From a virus: a DNA stretch of 28,186 bases. The notes below the pieces were generated by a model. The model saw nothing but the letters and a program-made list of their open reading frames with translations, was not told where the DNA came from and ran no database searches. This document shows, piece by piece, positions 1,769 through 11,900 of this stretch; position 1 is the first letter of the stretch, and each line of letters opens with the position of its first letter. The stretch lies in the IMG/VR virus record IMGVR_UViG_3300033571_001608, positions 1-28,186 of that record, one strand, 5' to 3'. The translations under genes and the position numbers were made by a program.

Positions 1769-1804
1769 GAGAAAGGGGTCGGTCACTAGATCGGCCCCTT
1801 TCTC
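1769..1804 (+). terminator. Strong hairpin after the capsid gene (partial terminator or mRNA 3' stabiliser)
   Basis: The arms 1769-1784 and 1789-1804 form a 16-bp stem with the 4-base loop ACTA. Two of the pairs are G-U wobbles (third and sixth from the loop), so folding is better in the + strand RNA than in the antisense RNA. It starts 12 bases after the capsid stop codon. Only short T runs follow, so it is not a textbook intrinsic terminator. It could attenuate transcription into the connector genes or protect capsid mRNA from 3' decay. Confidence 0.75.
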
Positions 1805-1826
1805 ATTTATCAAATATGTAGTAAAA

Positions 1827-1832
1827 TATAAT
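1827..1832 (+). promoter_or_regulatory. Possible -10 element (TATAAT) before the connector gene
   Basis: A consensus TATAAT lies 22 bases after the post-capsid hairpin and 14 bases before the TTG start at 1847. There is no convincing -35 element, and a transcript starting here would have almost no leader. The surrounding DNA is AT-rich, so chance occurrence is likely. It is listed because the same arrangement recurs at 5262-5267. Confidence 0.25.
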
Positions 1833-1846
1833 TGAGGTGACATTCA

Positions 1847-2761
1847 TTGAACGAATATCTGCGTACCGATTATGACGATCTTACAATTTCTTTTACTGCT
1901 GCTAGCGGCATAACTAGTGTTATTTTTGAAGTGTATGATCTTGATACCGATGAATTTATTCAGTCTGGTACAACATCATCTGCTGCCTCATCAATATTCA
2001 ATGCAACCCTTACACAAGACTCAGTTCAGTACGACAGAAATGTAAAAATAGACTGGACTAGCAGCACCGCTTCTGGGGCAAGTTCTACAGTAGAAATTGC
2101 TTCAATCATTAGGCCATTTGCGACGGCAAGCAGAATTAGATCAATAGCAGACATTGATTCATCAGAAACCGACTCAGCCATCAAAAAGCAAGAAAGAAAA
2201 GCCAGGATGTACATTCAAATACAGACTGGAACAGAGTTCACTAAGAAATATAAGAGTGTTGTAGTTTATGGAAACAACACAGACGTTCTGACCCTATTAG
2301 AACCAATAATTAGACTAGATAAAGTATATAAGGACGATATTCTAATATATGATTCTTTGTCCAGTCCAAGTGTTAATAGTTTAGACTATGCCATAGAGCC
2401 TTCAATATCAAAATACAGAATAAAGGCAATCATTGAAGACAATGAATATGAAAGAGGTCTTCTTGAAAGCCCAGATTTCTCTGTGCTTCCATATGATGGA
2501 ATATTCGAAAAGGATGTTCAGTATAGAATAGTTGGAATCTTTGGATATGCGTATATTCCACCAGACATAGAACAGGCTACAGCCCTTCTTGTAGAAGATT
2601 ATCTGTGTGCCGACGCATCGGTTAGAAATAAGAATATATCTAAACTGTCTAACGATTCTTACGATATAACTTATGCTAGCAATGCCGCCCAGGGTTCTGG
2701 CAATCTCATTGTTGACGCTATTTTGGCAAGGTATCGTCAGCCACGATTTATGGTGATATAA
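1847..2761 (+). CDS. Head-tail connector (adaptor, gp6/gp15-like)
   Basis: This 304-aa protein starts at TTG 1847, supported by GAGGTGA at 1834-1840 with 6-base spacing. Residues ~1-90 look like a beta-rich Ig-like domain (alternating Thr/Ser/Val strands). Residues ~95-304 have the pattern of phage head-to-tail connectors: helices with a charged KKQERKARMYIQ segment, a strand region, then a C-terminal part with PPDIEQATALLVEDYL and a final ARYRQPRF tail close to what I know from actinophage connectors. The protein would sit under the portal and carry the head-closure protein. Arginine is mostly AGA, unlike the capsid gene just upstream. The N-terminal Ig-like part is an addition to the compact adaptor core; its role (virion decoration or interface) is unknown. 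Confidence 0.7.
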   Translation: MNEYLRTDYDDLTISFTAASGITSVIFEVYDLDTDEFIQSGTTSSAASSIFNATLTQDSVQYDRNVKIDWTSSTASGASSTVEIASIIRPFATASRIRSIADIDSSETDSAIKKQERKARMYIQIQTGTEFTKKYKSVVVYGNNTDVLTLLEPIIRLDKVYKDDILIYDSLSSPSVNSLDYAIEPSISKYRIKAIIEDNEYERGLLESPDFSVLPYDGIFEKDVQYRIVGIFGYAYIPPDIEQATALLVEDYLCADASVRNKNISKLSNDSYDITYASNAAQGSGNLIVDAILARYRQPRFMVI

Positions 2762-3199
2762 GTGTCATGCATCGCAAAAAGCGCATATACGATGAAGGCC
2801 GATATCTATCAGCCTACGGTAAGTCAGGACTCTACTGGTGCAGTTGTAAAGACATGGACATTTGAAAAGACAATAGACTGTGTTGCTAGAGGCATCCTTA
2901 GAAAAGGTGTAGGCGAGAATTCTACAGCCGTCGAAATTAATAACTATATAAATACTCTCACTGCTCTTGTAAAAATTAGATCATCTGCCGTCATCGCGTC
3001 CGACAGGCGTGTGGTGCTAATTAGAAATAATGATGAGGTTATCTATAAAGAGAATCAAGATCCGTCAACCGAGGGCGGCTTTCAGAACTCAACAATCTTT
3101 GAGCCAAGAGGTAGCACTCCAATAACCAACTTCGACGGAAGAGTTATAGAATATGAAACTGTTCTTATGAGACAAGAAATTCAAAGGCTGGTTACATAA
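2762..3199 (+). CDS. Head-closure / head-tail joining protein
   Basis: The product is 145 aa and predicted to be mostly beta. It begins at GTG 2762, directly after the connector stop codon, with GGTGAT just upstream; an in-frame ATG at 2792 would give a 135-aa form starting MKADIYQP. Size, order (after the adaptor, before the neck and tail-terminator genes) and features such as the early KADIYQPTVSQDSTG strand-turn and a long central barrel-like section fit the SPP1 gp16 / Phage_H_T_join type of stopper, which closes the portal channel after packaging and docks the tail. Assignment rests mainly on position and fold-like pattern; no catalytic motif is expected. It shares one base with the next gene (TAATG). 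Confidence 0.6.
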   Translation: MSCIAKSAYTMKADIYQPTVSQDSTGAVVKTWTFEKTIDCVARGILRKGVGENSTAVEINNYINTLTALVKIRSSAVIASDRRVVLIRNNDEVIYKENQDPSTEGGFQNSTIFEPRGSTPITNFDGRVIEYETVLMRQEIQRLVT

Positions 3200-3915
3200 T
3201 GGTAACTTTTAGAAAATCAAGAAGAGTTGATACGGGAGGAATGCCAGAAAAGATTATTGCCCTCACTCAGTATGATATGGCCATATTAACAAAACTTCAT
3301 AAGAGCGATGAGAACAAAATAGCAATTGAGCGTGGCGCGGCAAATTTAGTTGCAAACTATTTCGAAAAGTTCTTGGATGCCAGAGCAAGAGCCAACCGAG
3401 AAAGATTCCATCACGTTTATGAATGGGACAGAACTGGAGATAAGGATGCAAGACTTTTTAAAAGAAATATCGCTACGACTGCTCAAGGTAGCACAATAAC
3501 TTTTAAATTTACTAAGAGTAAAGAGCCAAACAGGAATGGTTATATTTTTTATAACAAGGCTAGTGTTATGGAGGCTGGCCAGACGGTAATAATTAGACCA
3601 AGGAATAAAAAGTTTTTGGTCTACACAATCAATAGTCAAATGATCGTTACGACCAAACCTTCTGTTGTTTCTAATCCAGGTGGCATCGCTGTAAAAGGGG
3701 CGTTTGCTGAAGAATGGAAATCATTTAGTGCCTACCAAGCAAGATCGGTACTAAAGCAATTCAGGTACTTTGAGTTGATAAATCAGGCAATCAAAACAAA
3801 AAGAAAGGTTGTCGTTCCCAAAATAAATAGGGGGATGATAACTGGTATGATTGCCCAAGCGGAGGCTGACGCATCAAGTATTGCATCTAAGGCGGTGACA
3901 CTAACAAATGGCTGA
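3199..3915 (+). CDS. Neck / tail-completion protein (HK97 gp10-like position), uncertain family
   Basis: This 238-aa basic protein begins at ATG 3199, overlapping the previous stop codon by one base (TAATG), so it is likely translationally coupled. It has a helical first half rich in Arg/Lys/Glu (RGAANLVANYFEKFLDARAR near residues 50-70), a beta section around residues 95-160, and a helical C-terminus. Its slot between head-closure protein and tail terminator is where siphoviruses encode an HK97 gp10-like neck protein. At 238 aa it is longer than the usual gp10-like protein, and I see no diagnostic motif, so function is inferred from gene order. Codons are AGA- and ATA-rich, as in its neighbours. 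Confidence 0.5.
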   Translation: MVTFRKSRRVDTGGMPEKIIALTQYDMAILTKLHKSDENKIAIERGAANLVANYFEKFLDARARANRERFHHVYEWDRTGDKDARLFKRNIATTAQGSTITFKFTKSKEPNRNGYIFYNKASVMEAGQTVIIRPRNKKFLVYTINSQMIVTTKPSVVSNPGGIAVKGAFAEEWKSFSAYQARSVLKQFRYFELINQAIKTKRKVVVPKINRGMITGMIAQAEADASSIASKAVTLTNG

Positions 3916-4396
3916 TTATACCAAACTTCCAATAGTTTTAATTAATAATTACTTATGGGATCTAGCCAGTGGGTCGGTTTCTGGATATGCAACAATTTCT
4001 AGTGCTGTTTGGAACATTCAGTCATATCAATATAGACCATTTTATCCAGTTAATGAAAACCTGGCCCCAGAATCCTCTACCATGCCATACGTTCTTTATG
4101 ACTACCTATATGATGAGCCAGATGATTCATTCTGGCCCATGCACAAGGAAAAGGCAATATACAGCATAGTCGGAGATATTCCACAGATATTTTATGTAAA
4201 AAACTTCATCTTTGACACCCTAAAAAAGTATGATAAAAGTGCCCAAGAGGTAAACGACTATATAAAAGATCCTACAATAAATTTCAAATGCATTCATGTG
4301 CATCAAAGCAACTTTATTACAGACGAGAAAAGAATAGATAGTTTTAAGCCAAAATATATCACCACTCTAACGCTAACTTACGATTATACAAAATAA
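3908..4396 (+). CDS. Tail terminator protein
   Basis: The 162-aa product overlaps the previous gene by 8 bases and starts at ATG 3908. It is rich in Tyr, Asp and Pro and contains a PYVLYDYLYDEPDDSFWPMHKE segment-type strand pair (about residues 59-80), followed by a helix (FYVKNFIFDTLKKYD) and a final strand (ITTLTLTYDY). This order of strands around one long helix is what tail terminator proteins (lambda gpU, SPP1 gp17) show; they cap the tail tube at a set length and join it to the neck. It lies directly before the tail tube gene, as expected. No sequence motif is decisive, so the call combines position, size and secondary-structure pattern. Confidence 0.6.
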   Translation: MADYTKLPIVLINNYLWDLASGSVSGYATISSAVWNIQSYQYRPFYPVNENLAPESSTMPYVLYDYLYDEPDDSFWPMHKEKAIYSIVGDIPQIFYVKNFIFDTLKKYDKSAQEVNDYIKDPTINFKCIHVHQSNFITDEKRIDSFKPKYITTLTLTYDYTK

Positions 4397-4447
4397 CCCG
4401 TGGCATGATAACATAATTAATGAGGAAACGTCATTTTTCAAAATCTT

Positions 4448-4456
4448 AGGAGGTGA
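4448..4456 (+). promoter_or_regulatory. Strong Shine-Dalgarno for the tail tube gene
   Basis: AGGAGGTGA lies 5 bases before ATG 4462, one of the best ribosome sites in the window, in keeping with the high copy number of the tube protein. The 65-base gap before the ATG (4397-4461) holds no clear terminator; a TGATAACAT resembling a weak extended -10 is present near 4403-4411. Confidence 0.6.
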
Positions 4457-4461
4457 AATAA

Positions 4462-5199
4462 ATGGCAAGAGACTTTAACGCAAAAAATATTATTGTTGGT
4501 GGATCAACATTTTATGTTGGACCATCTGGCGTAGAACTTAGCAAAGTCGGTGCTAGCACACAAACAGATACCCTTCAAGATCCAACAAAGATGACTTCTG
4601 CATCTTGGTATCACCTGGGCTACACACAGAACGGCGTTACAATGAACATTGAGCCAACATACGGTGAGGTGGTTGTTGATCAACTCCTTGACGTAGCAAG
4701 ACTCTTCAAGTCTTCACAGAGAGTAATGGTCGCTACATCACTAACAGAAACAACGCTTGAGAATCTTTACGTTGCAATTGGTGGAAAGACAGGAGCAACT
4801 GGAGATTTTGCGGCCAGTGCAACTGCTTCAGCACTCGTTGCTTCAGCAGACTCCGCCCCATCAACTGGATCAAGACTAACAGCATCAACCTATGTTGATG
4901 CAGGCAATGCTGCTTCTGCAAACGCAATTGCATCTGTTCTTGATATCAACGGTGGCGCACTCGGATATGCCCCAATTGAAAGATCAGTTTGTTTCGTTGG
5001 ACCAGCACCAGCAAGCCTCGGAAGAGCAGAAAGAATTTACATTGGATATAGAGCAGTTTCTATGGACGCTGTAGGCGTAGCAACACAAAGAGACAACGCT
5101 ACTCTATTCCCAGTAAACTTCCGTCTTCTTCCATCAGAAGAGAATGAGGCAGCCGATGGCAACGCAGCATATGGCAGGATCATCGACAGAGTTTACTAA
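4462..5199 (+). CDS. Major tail (tube) protein
   Basis: This 245-aa protein would polymerise as rings to form the tail tube. Evidence: location between the tail terminator and frameshifted chaperones, strong ribosome site, host-adapted codons (more CGT, AAC, TTC and CTT than neighbours), and an N-terminus (ARDFNAKNIIVGGSTFYVGP) typical of phage tube proteins. Residues ~65-105 carry the EPTYGEVVVDQLLDVARLF strand-helix region seen in such proteins. An Ala/Ser/Thr-rich low-complexity stretch covers about residues 110-160 and may be a surface loop or small inserted domain. The C-terminal part returns to beta strands (ERIYIGYRAVSMDAV, TLFPVNFRLLPSEEN). A strong hairpin follows at 5215-5252. Confidence 0.85.
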   Translation: MARDFNAKNIIVGGSTFYVGPSGVELSKVGASTQTDTLQDPTKMTSASWYHLGYTQNGVTMNIEPTYGEVVVDQLLDVARLFKSSQRVMVATSLTETTLENLYVAIGGKTGATGDFAASATASALVASADSAPSTGSRLTASTYVDAGNAASANAIASVLDINGGALGYAPIERSVCFVGPAPASLGRAERIYIGYRAVSMDAVGVATQRDNATLFPVNFRLLPSEENEAADGNAAYGRIIDRVY

Positions 5200-5214
5200 A
5201 ATAACTTAATATAT

Positions 5215-5252
5215 AAAATAAAAGATGTGGCTTAGGCTGCATCTTTTATTTT
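5215..5252 (+). terminator. Intrinsic-terminator-like hairpin after the tail tube gene
   Basis: Arms 5215-5231 and 5236-5252 form a 17-bp stem with loop TTAG. Two G-U wobbles lie third and fourth from the loop, and the right arm ends in an A-TTTTT run, so an intrinsic terminator reading on the + strand is likely. It begins 15 bases after the tube stop codon. Its layout resembles the post-capsid hairpin at 1769-1804. Confidence 0.8.
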
Positions 5253-5261
5253 TGTCTAAGG

Positions 5262-5267
5262 TATAAT
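5262..5267 (+). promoter_or_regulatory. Possible -10 element (TATAAT) before the chaperone gene
   Basis: TATAAT lies 9 bases after the post-tube hairpin and 26 bases before ATG 5294. No good -35 element is seen at the expected distance (that position falls in the terminator arm). It is a candidate restart promoter for chaperone and tape measure expression. Confidence 0.3.
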
Positions 5268-5293
5268 ATTTATATACACAGAAAGGAAAATAC

Positions 5294-5620
5294 ATGGCAA
5301 CTAAGGTTTACGAGTCAATAGAGTTAGAACTTCAGGATGGGACGGTAGTAACAGTAAAGCCTCTCAATCTTAAGACACTGAGACTAGTTATGAAAGAATG
5401 GCAGAACGCACAAAATGTAACAAATGAGGACGAGTTCCTTGGGGTTCTTATCAAATGCACCTCTATTGCAATGAAGCACCTGGCACCAGAAAAGGCTGAC
5501 TCAGTAGAAGAAGATCTTGATCTTCAAACCATGTACAAGATCCTTGAGATCTCCGCAGATATCAGGCTCAACGACCCAAATCTGGTAGCGGCGGCTCAGG
5601 GACAACCTGGGAGGAACTAG
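5294..5620 (+). CDS. Tail assembly chaperone (G-like, zero-frame product)
   Basis: This 108-aa protein begins at ATG 5294 behind AAAGGA (spacing about 6) and ends at TAG 5618-5620. Position between tube and tape measure, small size and helical content (PLNLKTLRLVMKEWQNAQ and following helices) identify it as the short tail assembly chaperone of siphoviruses, which coats the tape measure and recruits tube protein; it is not kept in the virion. The last 12 residues after the slippery site are specific to this unshifted form. Most ribosomes would finish here, with a minority moving to the -1 frame to make the longer G-T protein. Confidence 0.85.
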   Translation: MATKVYESIELELQDGTVVTVKPLNLKTLRLVMKEWQNAQNVTNEDEFLGVLIKCTSIAMKHLAPEKADSVEEDLDLQTMYKILEISADIRLNDPNLVAAAQGQPGRN

Positions 5621-5973
5621 ACTTAGTTCCTATCGTTGCTGAAGTCTTTCTGCTAGGAAACTGGAAAGACTACGATGAACTTGAGTCGTCGCTTTCCATG
5701 CCAGAAATGATGGCTACTCTGAATGCAATTCAGGAGTCAGAAAAAAGGAGAAATAAGTTCATGGCAGCACTACAAGGAGTTGATCTAGATGAACACAACA
5801 GCAATGAAAAAACAACTCAGAGTAGCGGACCAGTGACCTTAGAGCAAGTGCAAGCAAGAGCAGTAGCAAGACTAACTGGAGACCAAAATCTGGCGGGCGC
5901 TATAGAACAGGGCATAACGCCAGAAATGGGGCTAAACTATAACATAGTCTCGGAGGGTACTGAGTTTGGATAG
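5294..5973 (+). CDS. Tail assembly chaperone G-T fusion made by -1 frameshift
   Basis: Reading 5294-5581 in the first frame and then 5581-5973 in the -1 frame gives a fusion of about 226 aa (96 + 130). The -1 frame is open from 5548 to TAG 5971-5973 and has no credible start codon of its own with a ribosome site near the slip; an ATG at 5698 would omit the conserved beginning. The T part starts with a Gly/Ser linker, then TTWEELDLVP, VFLLGNWKDYDELE and LSMPEMMATL, a pattern I know from the T domains of actinophage chaperones. G-T bridges tape measure and tube protein during assembly. The T end overlaps the tape measure start by 8 bases. Efficiency cannot be read from sequence. Confidence 0.85.
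5575..5581 (+). other. Programmed -1 ribosomal frameshift site (CCCAAAT)
   Basis: The heptamer C-CCA-AAT is in the right phase (last base of a codon, then two zero-frame codons) and fits the X-XXY-YYZ rule. It lies inside the window where both the G frame and the -1 T frame are open (5548-5620), and I found no other good heptamer there. Two hairpins follow (5595-5611 and 5612-5631). Confidence 0.8.
5595..5631 (+). promoter_or_regulatory. Two abutting hairpins downstream of the slippery site
   Basis: Hairpin 1: arms 5595-5600 and 5606-5611, six pairs including one G-U, loop GACAA, starting 13 bases after the heptamer. Hairpin 2: arms 5612-5619 and 5624-5631, eight perfect pairs, loop GACT; the G stop codon TAG 5618-5620 lies in it. 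They touch with no gap, so they could stack end to end and act as the frameshift stimulator. Confidence 0.5.
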
Positions 5974-8900
5974 TATCAGAACTACGCTTAGGTATGATGC
6001 AGATCTGGGCGCAGCAATGGCTCAGGTCAAGGCTTTAACAGGGCAGGTAGGTGCTCTTAATCTTGCATTTAATTCTTTAGACAAGAATGCTGTTGGCGTT
6101 AGAAATACTCTTGCTAATACCTTTGCAGCGAATCTTTCTAGCATGGGCGGATTCAGAACAGAGATGGTCAATCTCACTGGCCAAACAGAAAAATTCGGCA
6201 GGGCACTGGCTGCAAATAAATTGTCCATGCGTGAGTACTTTGCTGAAGCATATAGAGGATACACAAGACAGTCATCTATGATGAGGCAACTTGCCAGGGA
6301 ACAGGTTAAATTTCAAGAAGCAATTGCCATTCCAATGGGTAGAAATGCGGCTGGACAGATGCAAGGTCTTATGGCTGTTCCGACACAGGTAGATTTTAAA
6401 AATGCATCAACCAGAATGAAACTGCTTAGTCAAGAATTTAATATCTTTAACCAACTAGTACGCAACGGTGCAGATGAATTAATCAATATGGGTAAGAACA
6501 CACAGTGGACTGGTAGACAGTTGACTGTTGGTTTGACCATGCCAGTCGTTCTATTTGGTGCGACCTTTGCTAAGGTCTTTATGGACATTGACAAGCAAAT
6601 GACAAGGTTCGCCAAGGTATATGGCGAAGATGTAATTGGAACAAGTGCCAGGGCTACCGAAGATATGAAGAAGCAGGTCATGGAACTTGCAGAAACAATT
6701 TCTTCTCAGTTTGGTGTCGCGGCATCAGAAACGGTGGGTCTAGCCGCCGATATTGCTGCAACTGGAAAAGAAGGGCAGGATCTTCTAGATACTGTTGCAC
6801 AAACTAATAAACTTGCTGTTCTTGGTGAAGTAGATAGACAAGAGGCAATGAAAGCAACTCTTGCAATCCAATCCGCATTTAAACAAAATACCGATGAACT
6901 TGCTGAGTCCATCAACTTCCTGAATGCAGTTGAAAATCAGACATCAACTACCCTCAATGATCTTGTTGAGGCCATTCCAAAGGCTGGTCCAGTTGTCAAG
7001 GGCCTTGGGGGATCTATTAAGGATCTTTCTGTTCTAATGGTTGCGATGAAGGAAGGTGGCATTCCAGCAGCCGAAGCAGCAAATGCTATCAAGTCTGGTC
7101 TTGCTTCTCTTATTAATCCAACAAAAAAGGCTTCTGAGGTTGCAAAGCAGTTTGGTGTAGATCTTGTTGGAATAGTAGAGGCTAATAAAGGCCAACTAAT
7201 GCCAACAATTATGGCTGTTCAAACTGCACTTAATGGCCTAGATGCATTTTCTAGATCGAAGATAATTGAAGAAATTTTTGGAAAATATCAGTTTGCTCGT
7301 ATCTCTGCACTATTCAATAACTTGGGCAAGGCGGGGTCGCAGACTCAGCAGGCAATGGAATTGGCTGGTGCCTCTACTACCGAACTTGCTGGAATCGCAA
7401 ACCAAGAACTTAAAGCCTATACAGAATCAACAACTGTTAGATTTCAAAGAATGGTTGAGACTGTAAAGAATCAACTTGTTCCTATGGGTGCCTCACTACT
7501 TGAGATGCTCACTCCAGCACTAGATAAACTATCTGGAATTATTGAAGTTATTAGAAATGCCGTAGGAAATCTTCCAGACTTCCTTAAAGAGCCACTAAAA
7601 ATTATTGGAGCGTTTGCGCTATTCGCTGGACCCATTCTAATGCTTGTTGGCTTGTTTAAAAACTTAATTGGAAATGCCATTAAATTTTCAATGTCTATTG
7701 TTGGACTAGGGGCAAAAATTGCTGGACTAGACGTTAGAAAGTTTGAACTTTTAGACGCGGAAACTGCTGCCGCAACTATGCAAATAGATAACATGTCAAC
7801 GTCTTTTGTTGAGCAAAAAGTGGCACTATCAAATCTAAATGTAGAACTTGGAAAATATATCACGCAACTTAGAACTGTTGCTACTCAAAATCCAAATCTA
7901 TTAGTTCGTGCCCCAGCCTCCCCTCCATTAATTCGTAGATCTGATGGTAGCAGGGGGCCAGAGATAGTACCAGGAGGGTATGGTGGTGGAGACAAGATCC
8001 CAGCCCTATTAGAACCTGGCGAATTTGTTATGAACAAAGAGGCTGCTTCTAGATTTGGCTCAATTCTTAATGCTATGAACAGGGGAACCATTCAAAAGTT
8101 TCAAGAAGGTGGGCTTGCTAGATCACATGTTGAAGAAGTTCTGGTGGACGGTAAGAAACAGTTTGGTGGAGTTATTTCCATTGAAAACCAGGATTATAAT
8201 CAAATACTGAATAGCCATAAAGATCTTTTCCCTGGTAGAAAACAACCAGTAACAATGGCAGATTTTTATGCATCTCTAGCAGCCGCGAGAGCATATGCAC
8301 AAAATAACCAAGTTACGCCATCATTTGCGGCTGGGCTGGCTGCTATGGAGCACGATGCAAGAATTATAAACAATGATGAAAATACATTTAGAAGAATGCT
8401 GGCTGAGAGAATGGCTCTTGGAACGCTTTCTGTCTTGCCTTCATCAGTTGTTACGAGAACAGGGCTAACGGTAGATCAAATATTTAATGCCGAACGAGAT
8501 AGATTCTTAGGCATTTTAACCTCAAATACAGACGCAACTTCTATTAGAGCAGCCCTGGTTGAATCTTCTTCAGGAACATTAAGAGCGAATGGCGTTACAT
8601 ATGCAGGAGAAGGAAGGGAAAGATCACTTTCAAATATTAGAGGTGGGGGTAGAAGAGGAGAGGGAGAAACAAGATATAGTTTGGGTCTAAGTGGGAGACT
8701 AATGCCGCTATATCAAAAAGATGAAAATCGTAGAAATGTACCTTCTTTATCAACGGTAACTCGTCTTGCAAATAGTGCCTTTGCTCCTTTTGCCCCAGAA
8801 TATTTCCGTGGCCCAGGACAAGGACAGCCAGTTCCACCATCTATGGCCCGTCCAGTTGGTCCTGGGCGAAGGCCACTAGTTGGAGTTATGCCAGGAGAAC

Positions 8901-11900
8901 TATTAGTTCCTCCAAGAATGTTTGCCGACAATGGAGCCATCGTTGATGAAAACGGAAGGGTTCGTCCACTTCCACCAGCACATCCAGAATCTCCACTAAT
9001 GCAAAGATTGGCAGCCAGGGCTGGAAGAACAACTAGTTCAATATCAGCACCAGGAACCAGTCAGGCAAGTCAGGCACAGCCCGACGTAGAGCGCAGCAGG
9101 GGATCGCTGATGGGCGGTGGAATGGTCGGCGGAATGTTTGGGCTTTCAATGGCAGGATCAACCATGAGCATGTTTATGGACTCTACTTCCGAAGCAACAC
9201 AAGCATTGTCTAAATTCAGTATGGGGCTTATGGCTGTTTCAAGTATTATGATGATGATGCCAAGCAGAATGCCATCAAATATGCTAGGACTTGGAACGCT
9301 AGGTGGAAGAATGAGTGCAGCAGGAGCATCAAGGGCTGCTGCTGGGGCCACTGGATTGGGAACTTCTGCTCTGCTAAGAGGAGGGGCCGCACTTTCAATG
9401 CTTGGTGGACCAGTTGGAATTGCTGCTGGCATTGGAGTGACTGCTGCTATTGCTGGATTTGTTATGTATAAGAAAGCAGCAGAAGAGGCAAGGCAGAGAG
9501 CAATATCTGCTTTCTCAGATCCAGTAAAGACTGCGGAATATTTTGGGAAAAGAGTAGAAGACGTAACCGATAAAATAAAGCAAAATACACTAGAACTTCA
9601 GGCTGGTGCAGATAGTGTTTCTCAAATTGATGAGTCCTTAAGGGAGGCTATTAGACAAGACTATAGTTCCCTAATAGAAAGGCTAAAGTATTCAGCGGCA
9701 GAGGCTGGCGCAAAGCAGTTGGCTATAGCATTTAATAAAATGGTGTCGTCTGGACTATCAGCAGATGAAGCAAGGTCTGCAATACAGGCCATAGCAGAAG
9801 AATCTGGCACTGCTGGGGGTCAGGCATTCGGAATTGCTATGCGACAAAGTATGCTTAGAGAAATGACTGCCCCAGAACTTATTGCCTCAACCAGATCGCT
9901 TTTTGATCCATCTCAACAAACTGCCCTTGCCGATAGCATGAGAGAACAACAACAGCAGATGAGAACAGAGGCAGGGGCCTTAATGCTTGCAGTGGCTAAG
10001 GAGCAGGCCACATTTCGTGCTGGACTAGAAGATCCAGTCTCAGCAATTGTTAATATGGCTGCAAGGACTGGAAATGTACCGTCTTGGGCAGAGTGGTTAA
10101 TGAGTCCAAATCAGCAGGCCCTAAATGAAAAAAGTAAAGCACTAGAGCAGTTAGCATCCGATCTTGAACAACTATCCGACATTGACTCATCACAACTTAT
10201 AGGAATTACAGAACAATTATTTAGTAATTTTGAAAAGGCCCCAAGAGAGGCAATAAAGGCATTCGATGATCTAGCCGTTGCCGCAAGAGAAAGCGGTGGA
10301 ATAGCGTTTGATCCAGGCCCAGTCGCAGAGTATTTAAAGGAACTTGACGACATTAGTGGACCAATGTTGGCAAGATTTATCCAAAACAATGAAGAAAGAG
10401 CGCAGGCCGTTATGCGAGCAATAACAGCGGGATTAACTCCACAAGAAATCCAAAAGGCCCTTGCAGAAGGTGGCCTAGATGAATTAAATATACGGATAGG
10501 TATCCAAATTGATATTCAAGAGGCAAAAAATAGAGTAGAAGAAGCGGCACAAGCGGTTAAAGATTTAGCATCAGAAACTGGAACTATGACAGAGGCTTTA
10601 ACTAAGGGCCAGCAAAGACTCAGTAACTTAATTCAACAAAGAACAAAGGCAGTTGATCGATTTGAAGCCGACGCCGAAACAATGGCAGAGGCATTTAAAA
10701 TACAACAGCAGGCAGCAGAGGATGAGATTAATGCACTAGAGAAAGAACAGAATCAAATAGAGAAAAGCGCAGATTCATACATTAAATCTATAGAAAATAG
10801 GCGGCAGGCCGACAAGTTCTATGCCGATCAAAGAAGATCCAGCCTAGATGCTTTAAGCGCCCTTGCCGAAGGAGATGTATTTGGATTCCTGACTGCAAGG
10901 AATGAGATGCAGGCTAATGCAGCAGATTATGCCTATGAGCAAGAAATTAATAGAATTGAGGAAAGAAAGAATCTAGAAAACGAGGTGCTTCAGGCCCGCA
11001 TAGATAAAAGACAAGAAGAAATGGATCTTGCATCAAGAGCACATGATGCTGCAATGCAAGCAATGGAAGATGAAAAACAAGCATTCTTTACATCTCAAGA
11101 CGAAAAGATTGCCAAGCAAAAAACTGCTAATGAAGAAATGTCTAAAATGATTGATGGCATAAAAAATGGAGAAATAGAGGCAATAGATGCTGTTAAAACA
11201 TACTTTAGTAAAGCGGCTGCTGCAAAGTATGAAGAAGCCGTAAAGTATCAAATGAAAGAAACATACGCTCTGCTTCAGCAACAAATTCTTAAAGGAGATA
11301 TTACTAAAGAACAGGCAGGAATTCAACTTCAGCAAATGATGCAGGCCCTTTTCCCAAGAGTTCAATCTGGAGCATTTAATGTTTCACAAACCATAGAAGA
11401 AACCTTAAAATATCTTCAACTAACACCATTTCAATCACAGATCCAACGTAGTATAGAAAGTAATATTGGCGATGCCGCTGCTACCGCAGCCGGAGACCCA
11501 CCAGTTTTCCGTGCCGCTGGAGGATATATAAGTGGCCCTGGCACATCAACATCAGATTCAATTCCAGCCCTACTTTCCGATGGCGAATATGTTATCCGCG
11601 CCTCAAGCGTAGAAAAGTATGGGCCAGAATTTTTTGACCAACTTAATGCTGCAAAGTTTGCTCTTGGCGGAATGGTAGAGGGATATGGCGAACAACAGAG
11701 CAGAAGAGCATCTGCAAGATTTGTCGGCAGGACTCCTCTCGGTGGCAGAAGAGGTGGCACTGGAAGAGGCACGGGCACCGATCAAACATCTATGGCTGGC
11801 CAAGGAACAGATGGATTCCTAGCAGTTGAGTTTGCTAAGCAACAACTTGGAGAAGCATATTCTCTATCTCCCAACAATATAAATTCATGGGGATGCTCAA

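Follow-up and report, generated by a model that had tools for sequence, protein, structure and literature searches.

What lies directly behind the genes for the two most-used virion proteins of a phage, and would it separate their transcription from that of the genes that follow? The question is raised by a 28,186-base virus contig (IMG/VR virus record IMGVR_UViG_3300033571_001608, the whole of which is referred to here as the window), in which both the major capsid protein gene and the major tail (tail tube) protein gene are followed by a hairpin and then by a short box resembling a -10 hexamer. From the sequence and its comparison with relatives, each of these cassettes is very probably an intrinsic terminator followed by a promoter that is defined by its -10 element and has no recognisable -35, and together they would split the late genes into transcription units. 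The parts of the two cassettes are as follows:

641–1756, + strand: major capsid protein gene (tblastn to annotated capsid proteins; PHROG 1623, head and packaging)
1769–1804, + strand: hairpin 1, predicted intrinsic terminator, 16 pairs and a 4-base loop, ACTA (folding, relatives, covariation)
1819–1828, + strand: conserved box TAGTAAAATA, with the predicted -10 hexamer TAAAAT at 1822–1827 (invariant in 26 of 26 distinct close relatives)
1827–1832, + strand: TATAAT named in a preliminary description of the window, overlapping the end of TAGTAAAATA (register kept in 5 of 26 close relatives)
1834–1840, + strand: GAGGTGA, ribosome-binding site of the next gene, which has a TTG start at 1847 (sequence)
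4462–5199, + strand: major tail (tail tube) protein gene (tblastn to annotated major tail proteins; PHROG 2175)
5215–5252, + strand: hairpin 2, predicted intrinsic terminator, 17 pairs and a 4-base loop, TTAG (folding, relatives)
5261–5267, + strand: conserved box GTATAAT, with the -10 hexamer at 5262–5267 (relatives)

The arms of the hairpins are GAGAAAGGGGTCGGTC-ACTA-GATCGGCCCCTTTCTC and AAAATAAAAGATGTGGC-TTAG-GCTGCATCTTTTATTTT, respectively, so that the preliminary description had placed both stems correctly, and both fold far better than shuffled sequences. On the sense strand the post-capsid gap has a minimum free energy (MFE) of -34.5 kcal/mol (z -7.06), which 0 of 200 shuffles equalled, and the post-tail-tube gap one of -23.0 kcal/mol (z -4.93), equalled by 1 of 200. 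The corresponding antisense values are weaker (-22.2 and -18.4 kcal/mol), in agreement with the earlier remark that the G-U wobbles in the stems favour folding of the sense RNA. A search of Rfam gave no match.

The promoter half of the cassettes, on the other hand, could not be judged from the window alone, since TATAAT occurs there at chance level (26 found, against a mean of 24.9 in shuffles); a word of this kind, uninformative in a single genome, turned into a firm prediction through the comparison with relatives. Loci with a relative of the capsid protein (80) or of the tail tube protein (63) were collected, and those with at least 90 nt past the stop codon were kept (74 and 60; 6 and 3 dropped). 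Merging identical 100-nt gaps left 45 distinct post-capsid and 35 distinct post-tail-tube gaps, which come from loci related to one another and are not independent events. In all 45 post-capsid gaps, a stem at least as stable as -16.4 kcal/mol precedes GTANAAT. Similarly, TATAAT lies 3' of the hairpin in all 35 post-tail-tube gaps, 31 of which have a stem reaching -12 kcal/mol with a simple finder; the stems of the remaining four have an inner mismatch, and in the three that were folded the hairpin forms (whole-gap MFE -27.9 to -30.8 kcal/mol, z about -3). Hairpin and box were thus found together in every distinct relative examined, the box always with a TANNNT hexamer, as the comparison proposed in the preliminary description had called for. 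In capsid relatives at 54–57% identity the post-capsid hexamer is TATAAT, TAAAAT or TACAAT, preceded by G, which is how a -10 hexamer would be expected to vary further out. A simple convergent origin of the two cassettes, as first suggested, is not supported by these data, since each cassette has been inherited and is conserved at the site it occupies.

The positions of the boxes were examined by aligning relatives on the box, with a pattern that did not place one locus, L089; alignments A1 and A2 hold one locus per distinct gap (26 and 21 rows). The preliminary description had taken a TATAAT as the -10 box at each site, and at the second, 5262–5267, this is the conserved word. After the capsid gene, the conserved box is TAGTAAAATA, and the TATAAT at 1827–1832 was rejected, being kept in only 5 of 26 relatives and implying a start, near 1839, inside the ribosome-binding site GAGGTGA. 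From TAAAAT and the usual -10 to +1 spacing, transcription after the capsid gene would instead begin near 1834–1835, at the edge of GAGGTGA, and GAGGTG stands at the same distance from the TAGTAAAATA box in part of the relatives. After the tail tube gene, a start near 5274 is predicted.

Selection on the RNA is most clearly seen in stem 1. Across the 26 aligned post-capsid gaps, 99.0% of the cells at the 12 consensus pairs are paired and 10 of the 12 pairs have changed on both sides, a result matched by 0 of 500 shuffles and lost when the partner is shifted by 1–3 columns. With both types of wobble treated alike, 71 distinct hairpins contain 35 G-U and 1 A-C, and 58 of them fold more stably on the sense strand and 3 on the antisense strand; in the remaining 10 neither strand has the advantage. 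The consensus fold of cassette 2 obtained with RNAalifold is weak (-2.5 kcal/mol) and its alignment poor, because MAFFT misaligns stems of unequal length; the single sequences each fold.

The arrangement is also nearly restricted to the two genes. Open reading frames of at least 60 residues were taken with a greedy picker rather than a gene finder, and a box together with a hairpin at least as stable as -15 kcal/mol lies behind two of them in each of three sequences: of 26 in the window, of 126 in a relative of 96 kb and of 138 in one of 107 kb. The two are always the capsid and tail tube genes. It is practically out of the question that the cassettes are chance products of AT-rich gaps: the number of TATAAT words in the window would suit such an origin, as would consensus scans whose promoter-like sites are no more frequent than in shuffles, but conservation, covariation and the restriction to two genes contradict it.

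Named phages carry the same parts. Nine were picked from the 175 records matching the capsid protein, namely seven Stanwilliamsviridae and the Rhodococcus phages Trina and Peregrin, and every one of them has a hairpin behind the capsid gene (gap z -2.4 to -6.4). Within the gap, an extended -10 (TGN-TANNNT) is present in 8 of 9 post-capsid and 8 of 8 examined post-tail-tube cases, where shuffles lead one to expect 0.05–0.31 per gap; the exception is the post-capsid site of Peregrin, where TGGTAAAAT extends into the start codon. The cultured Streptomyces phages (Stanwilliamsviridae) have hairpin and extended -10 box at both places. In one of them, Coruscant (MT711976; L146 2700–2764), the coding sequence after the capsid gene is annotated across the capsid stop and through the hairpin; the ATG 3' of the hairpin and of its TGCTACAAT box looks a better start for it, and was taken as the end of the gap.

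Several findings weigh against reading the cassettes as terminator plus promoter. Simple consensus scans recovered neither element as described here; the terminators were overlooked because the rule demands a T run after the stem, which here lies partly within it, and the promoters because the rule demands a -35. No -35 like TTGACA at 16–18 nt is shared among the post-capsid sets or within the close tail-tube set; in the distant tail-tube set, TTGTCT stands at roughly this distance. The window's two cassette boxes lack the TG of the textbook extended -10, so that they are not classed with promoters of that type. Terminator 1 has a modest U-tract (UUUCUCAUUU). Both parts follow 4 of 143 open reading frames in a distant 104-kb contig, G006, capsid and tail tube genes included. 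Finally, Peregrin has no hairpin after its annotated major tail protein gene (9-nt gap), nor do Stenotrophomonas phage Summit and Agrobacterium phage JP1 after the tail gene. In the more distant named phages the pattern frays: Summit has a hairpin behind the capsid gene alone, JP1 behind neither gene, and in Vibrio phage 1.215.B the hairpin is clear behind the tail gene and weaker behind the capsid gene.

Hairpins were also observed at other sites. The two additional hairpin-plus-box sites of G006 lie after other open reading frames, near 85974 and 3306 (L170 and L166). In the two long relatives designated G001 (near 47343) and G002 (near 65006), a strong minus-strand hairpin with the common core GTAGGATATACTC follows a gene of about 218 residues (L157 and L163); the sequence downstream is alike in the two, and there is no -10 box.

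The T-rich tracts bear on whether the hairpins terminate transcription or serve the RNA in another way. Both are stable hairpins just 3' of a gene with a U-rich tract at the 3' side of the stem, and the covariation of stem 1 and the excess of G-U over A-C indicate that they are selected as sense RNA, as would be expected of intrinsic terminators. The best 8-nt stretch holds 5 T at stem 1 and 7 T at stem 2, and 4–7 T across relatives. It is decidedly improbable that the main role of the hairpins is to keep exonucleases off the 3' ends of the plentiful capsid and tail tube mRNAs, or to mark sites of processing, within a longer transcript in which the boxes would be secondary promoters. Stable sense-strand stems right after the stops of the two most-used virion genes would suit this role, as would the modest tract after several post-capsid stems (4–5 T). 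Conversely, the post-tail-tube stems lead into clear T-rich stretches, 5–7 of 8 in most relatives, and the conserved -10-like box downstream in all distinct relatives fits stopping and would be left unexplained by protection alone. Termination and 3' protection are compatible, and both can be true.

Likewise, the boxes themselves can be read in two ways. Rather than being used by the host polymerase with its housekeeping sigma factor, they could form a phage-specific class of late promoters that needs a phage-encoded factor in addition, which we regard as rather unlikely. The cultured Streptomyces relatives have TGN-TANNNT at the same place, a sequence that a host sigma factor could read alone. 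The window contains a single copy of TAGTAAAATA, as does G001, and G002 contains three, which does not suggest a broad late-promoter class. In favour of such a factor, the boxes of the window's clade have neither a -35 nor TGN, and yet the 10 bases of TAGTAAAATA are invariant in 26 of 26; moreover, passages on Bacillus phage SPP1 describe a late promoter, PL1, with an atypical -35 and a need for an early phage factor (PMC6316719).

In combination, the preferred reading of terminator plus -10-defined promoter suggests the following course, for which anatomy and conservation provide the basis. RNA polymerase traversing the capsid or tail tube gene, both of them virion genes with very high expression, would halt at an intrinsic (Rho-independent) terminator immediately behind it. 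A -10-defined promoter within about 1–26 nt of the terminator (mostly 9–25) would then drive the head-tail connectors in the first case and the tail chaperones, tape measure and further genes in the second. The output of capsid and tube protein could in this manner be set apart from that of the low-copy parts. The original proposal of termination followed by a restart gains from the comparison, namely from the conserved hairpin and box, the covariation of stem 1, the sense wobbles and the extended -10 in the Streptomyces phages. The restart may be a weak one, as was first suggested. A closer coupling, in which each cassette is a fused element whose terminator, with its 3' arm and U-tract, occupies the position where a -35 would be expected, and in which the released polymerase may restart at the adjacent -10, is quite unlikely; if it were true, the ratio of abundant to scarce virion proteins would be set locally.

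The tail tube gene appears to have a promoter of its own, and its leader contains two conserved features:

4406–4414, + strand: TGATAACAT, predicted extended -10 promoter of the tail tube gene (TGNTAANAT unchanged across all 21 rows)
4422–4430, + strand: GAGGAAACG, leader element near the predicted mRNA 5' end (GAGGRARCG in 21 of 21 rows)

The TG of the extended -10 is present in the window's own 4406 box, and with this promoter the tail tube gene would form a one-gene unit. GAGGAAG is found in 7 of 7 Stanwilliamsviridae tail tube leaders, most of which contain CTAGCCA as well. Within the leader (4397–4461), the GAGGRARCG element lies well upstream of the true ribosome-binding site (4448–4456); by its complementarity to 16S rRNA, an element of the GAGGAAACG type might be a second Shine-Dalgarno or standby site, which is a guess on our part. 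A covarying leader hairpin in the window's clade was considered and dropped, RNAalifold having given no consensus pairs. Inspection of the short gap preceding the capsid gene revealed no comparable box, and the capsid gene therefore probably closes a unit to which the protease gene also belongs, the tail tube gene probably being a unit of its own.

With regard to gene context, the order of protease, capsid, connectors, tail tube, chaperones and tape measure is that of Stanwilliamsviridae records, the head-tail connectors lying downstream of the capsid gene and the tail chaperones, tape measure and further genes downstream of the tail tube gene. The best identity of the capsid protein to named phages is 45% (Streptomyces phage Wakanda; tblastn), and that of the tail tube protein to annotated major tail proteins of Streptomyces phages is at most 38.5% (tblastn). 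When bacterial and archaeal genomes were scanned with the capsid protein, no relative was found. The two tail chaperone frames overlap (5294–5620, the second open to 5973), as in phages with programmed frameshifting, and a -1 shift near 5600–5620 would fuse them (span 5294–5973).

Similar layouts exist in known phages. T7 has a terminator after capsid gene 10, its most abundant virion gene, with promoters close by; it uses its own single-subunit RNA polymerase, and the likeness is one of layout. In the record of Summit, whose capsid protein is distantly related, a terminator is annotated right after the capsid gene (6308–6338), whereas the gap behind its major tail gene, which has no hairpin, is 16 nt. 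In SPP1, terminators are predicted directly after capsid gene 13 (8775–8815; stop 8777) and at the end of tail tube gene 17.1* (11,255–11,304; stop 11,279) (PMC6316719, Tables 2 and 3). However, the next SPP1 gene (8828) is only about 12 nt from the capsid terminator, so that a box like those seen here would have little space, and the passages on its promoters report no late promoter related to PL1 (PMC6316719). Corndog, a cluster O mycobacteriophage, has a terminator after the major tail gene, but the passage describing it mentions neither a post-capsid terminator nor a promoter directly after the tail terminator (PMC4351075). Late transcripts of mycobacteriophage L5 are reported, in a passage of PMC5712189, to end at the gene 32–33 gap. 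Terminator passages on phage rV5 contained nothing specific to capsid or tail tube genes (PMC3606486), and a term search of the Coruscant genome paper (PMC7650747) found neither 'terminator' nor 'promoter'. Among the literature titles and abstracts, none was recognised as describing these cassettes for this family.

The arrangement is thus real, well conserved and made of ordinary parts, similar terminators having already been described in SPP1 and Corndog. What is added here is a conserved predicted terminator-plus-promoter at both genes across a phage group; no published description of it turned up in the searches. The analysis also corrects the start predicted for transcription downstream of the capsid gene, and it provides a testable map of how late transcription may be divided at the capsid and tail tube genes in a large, mostly uncultured phage group, of which cultured relatives exist, such as Coruscant on Streptomyces venezuelae.

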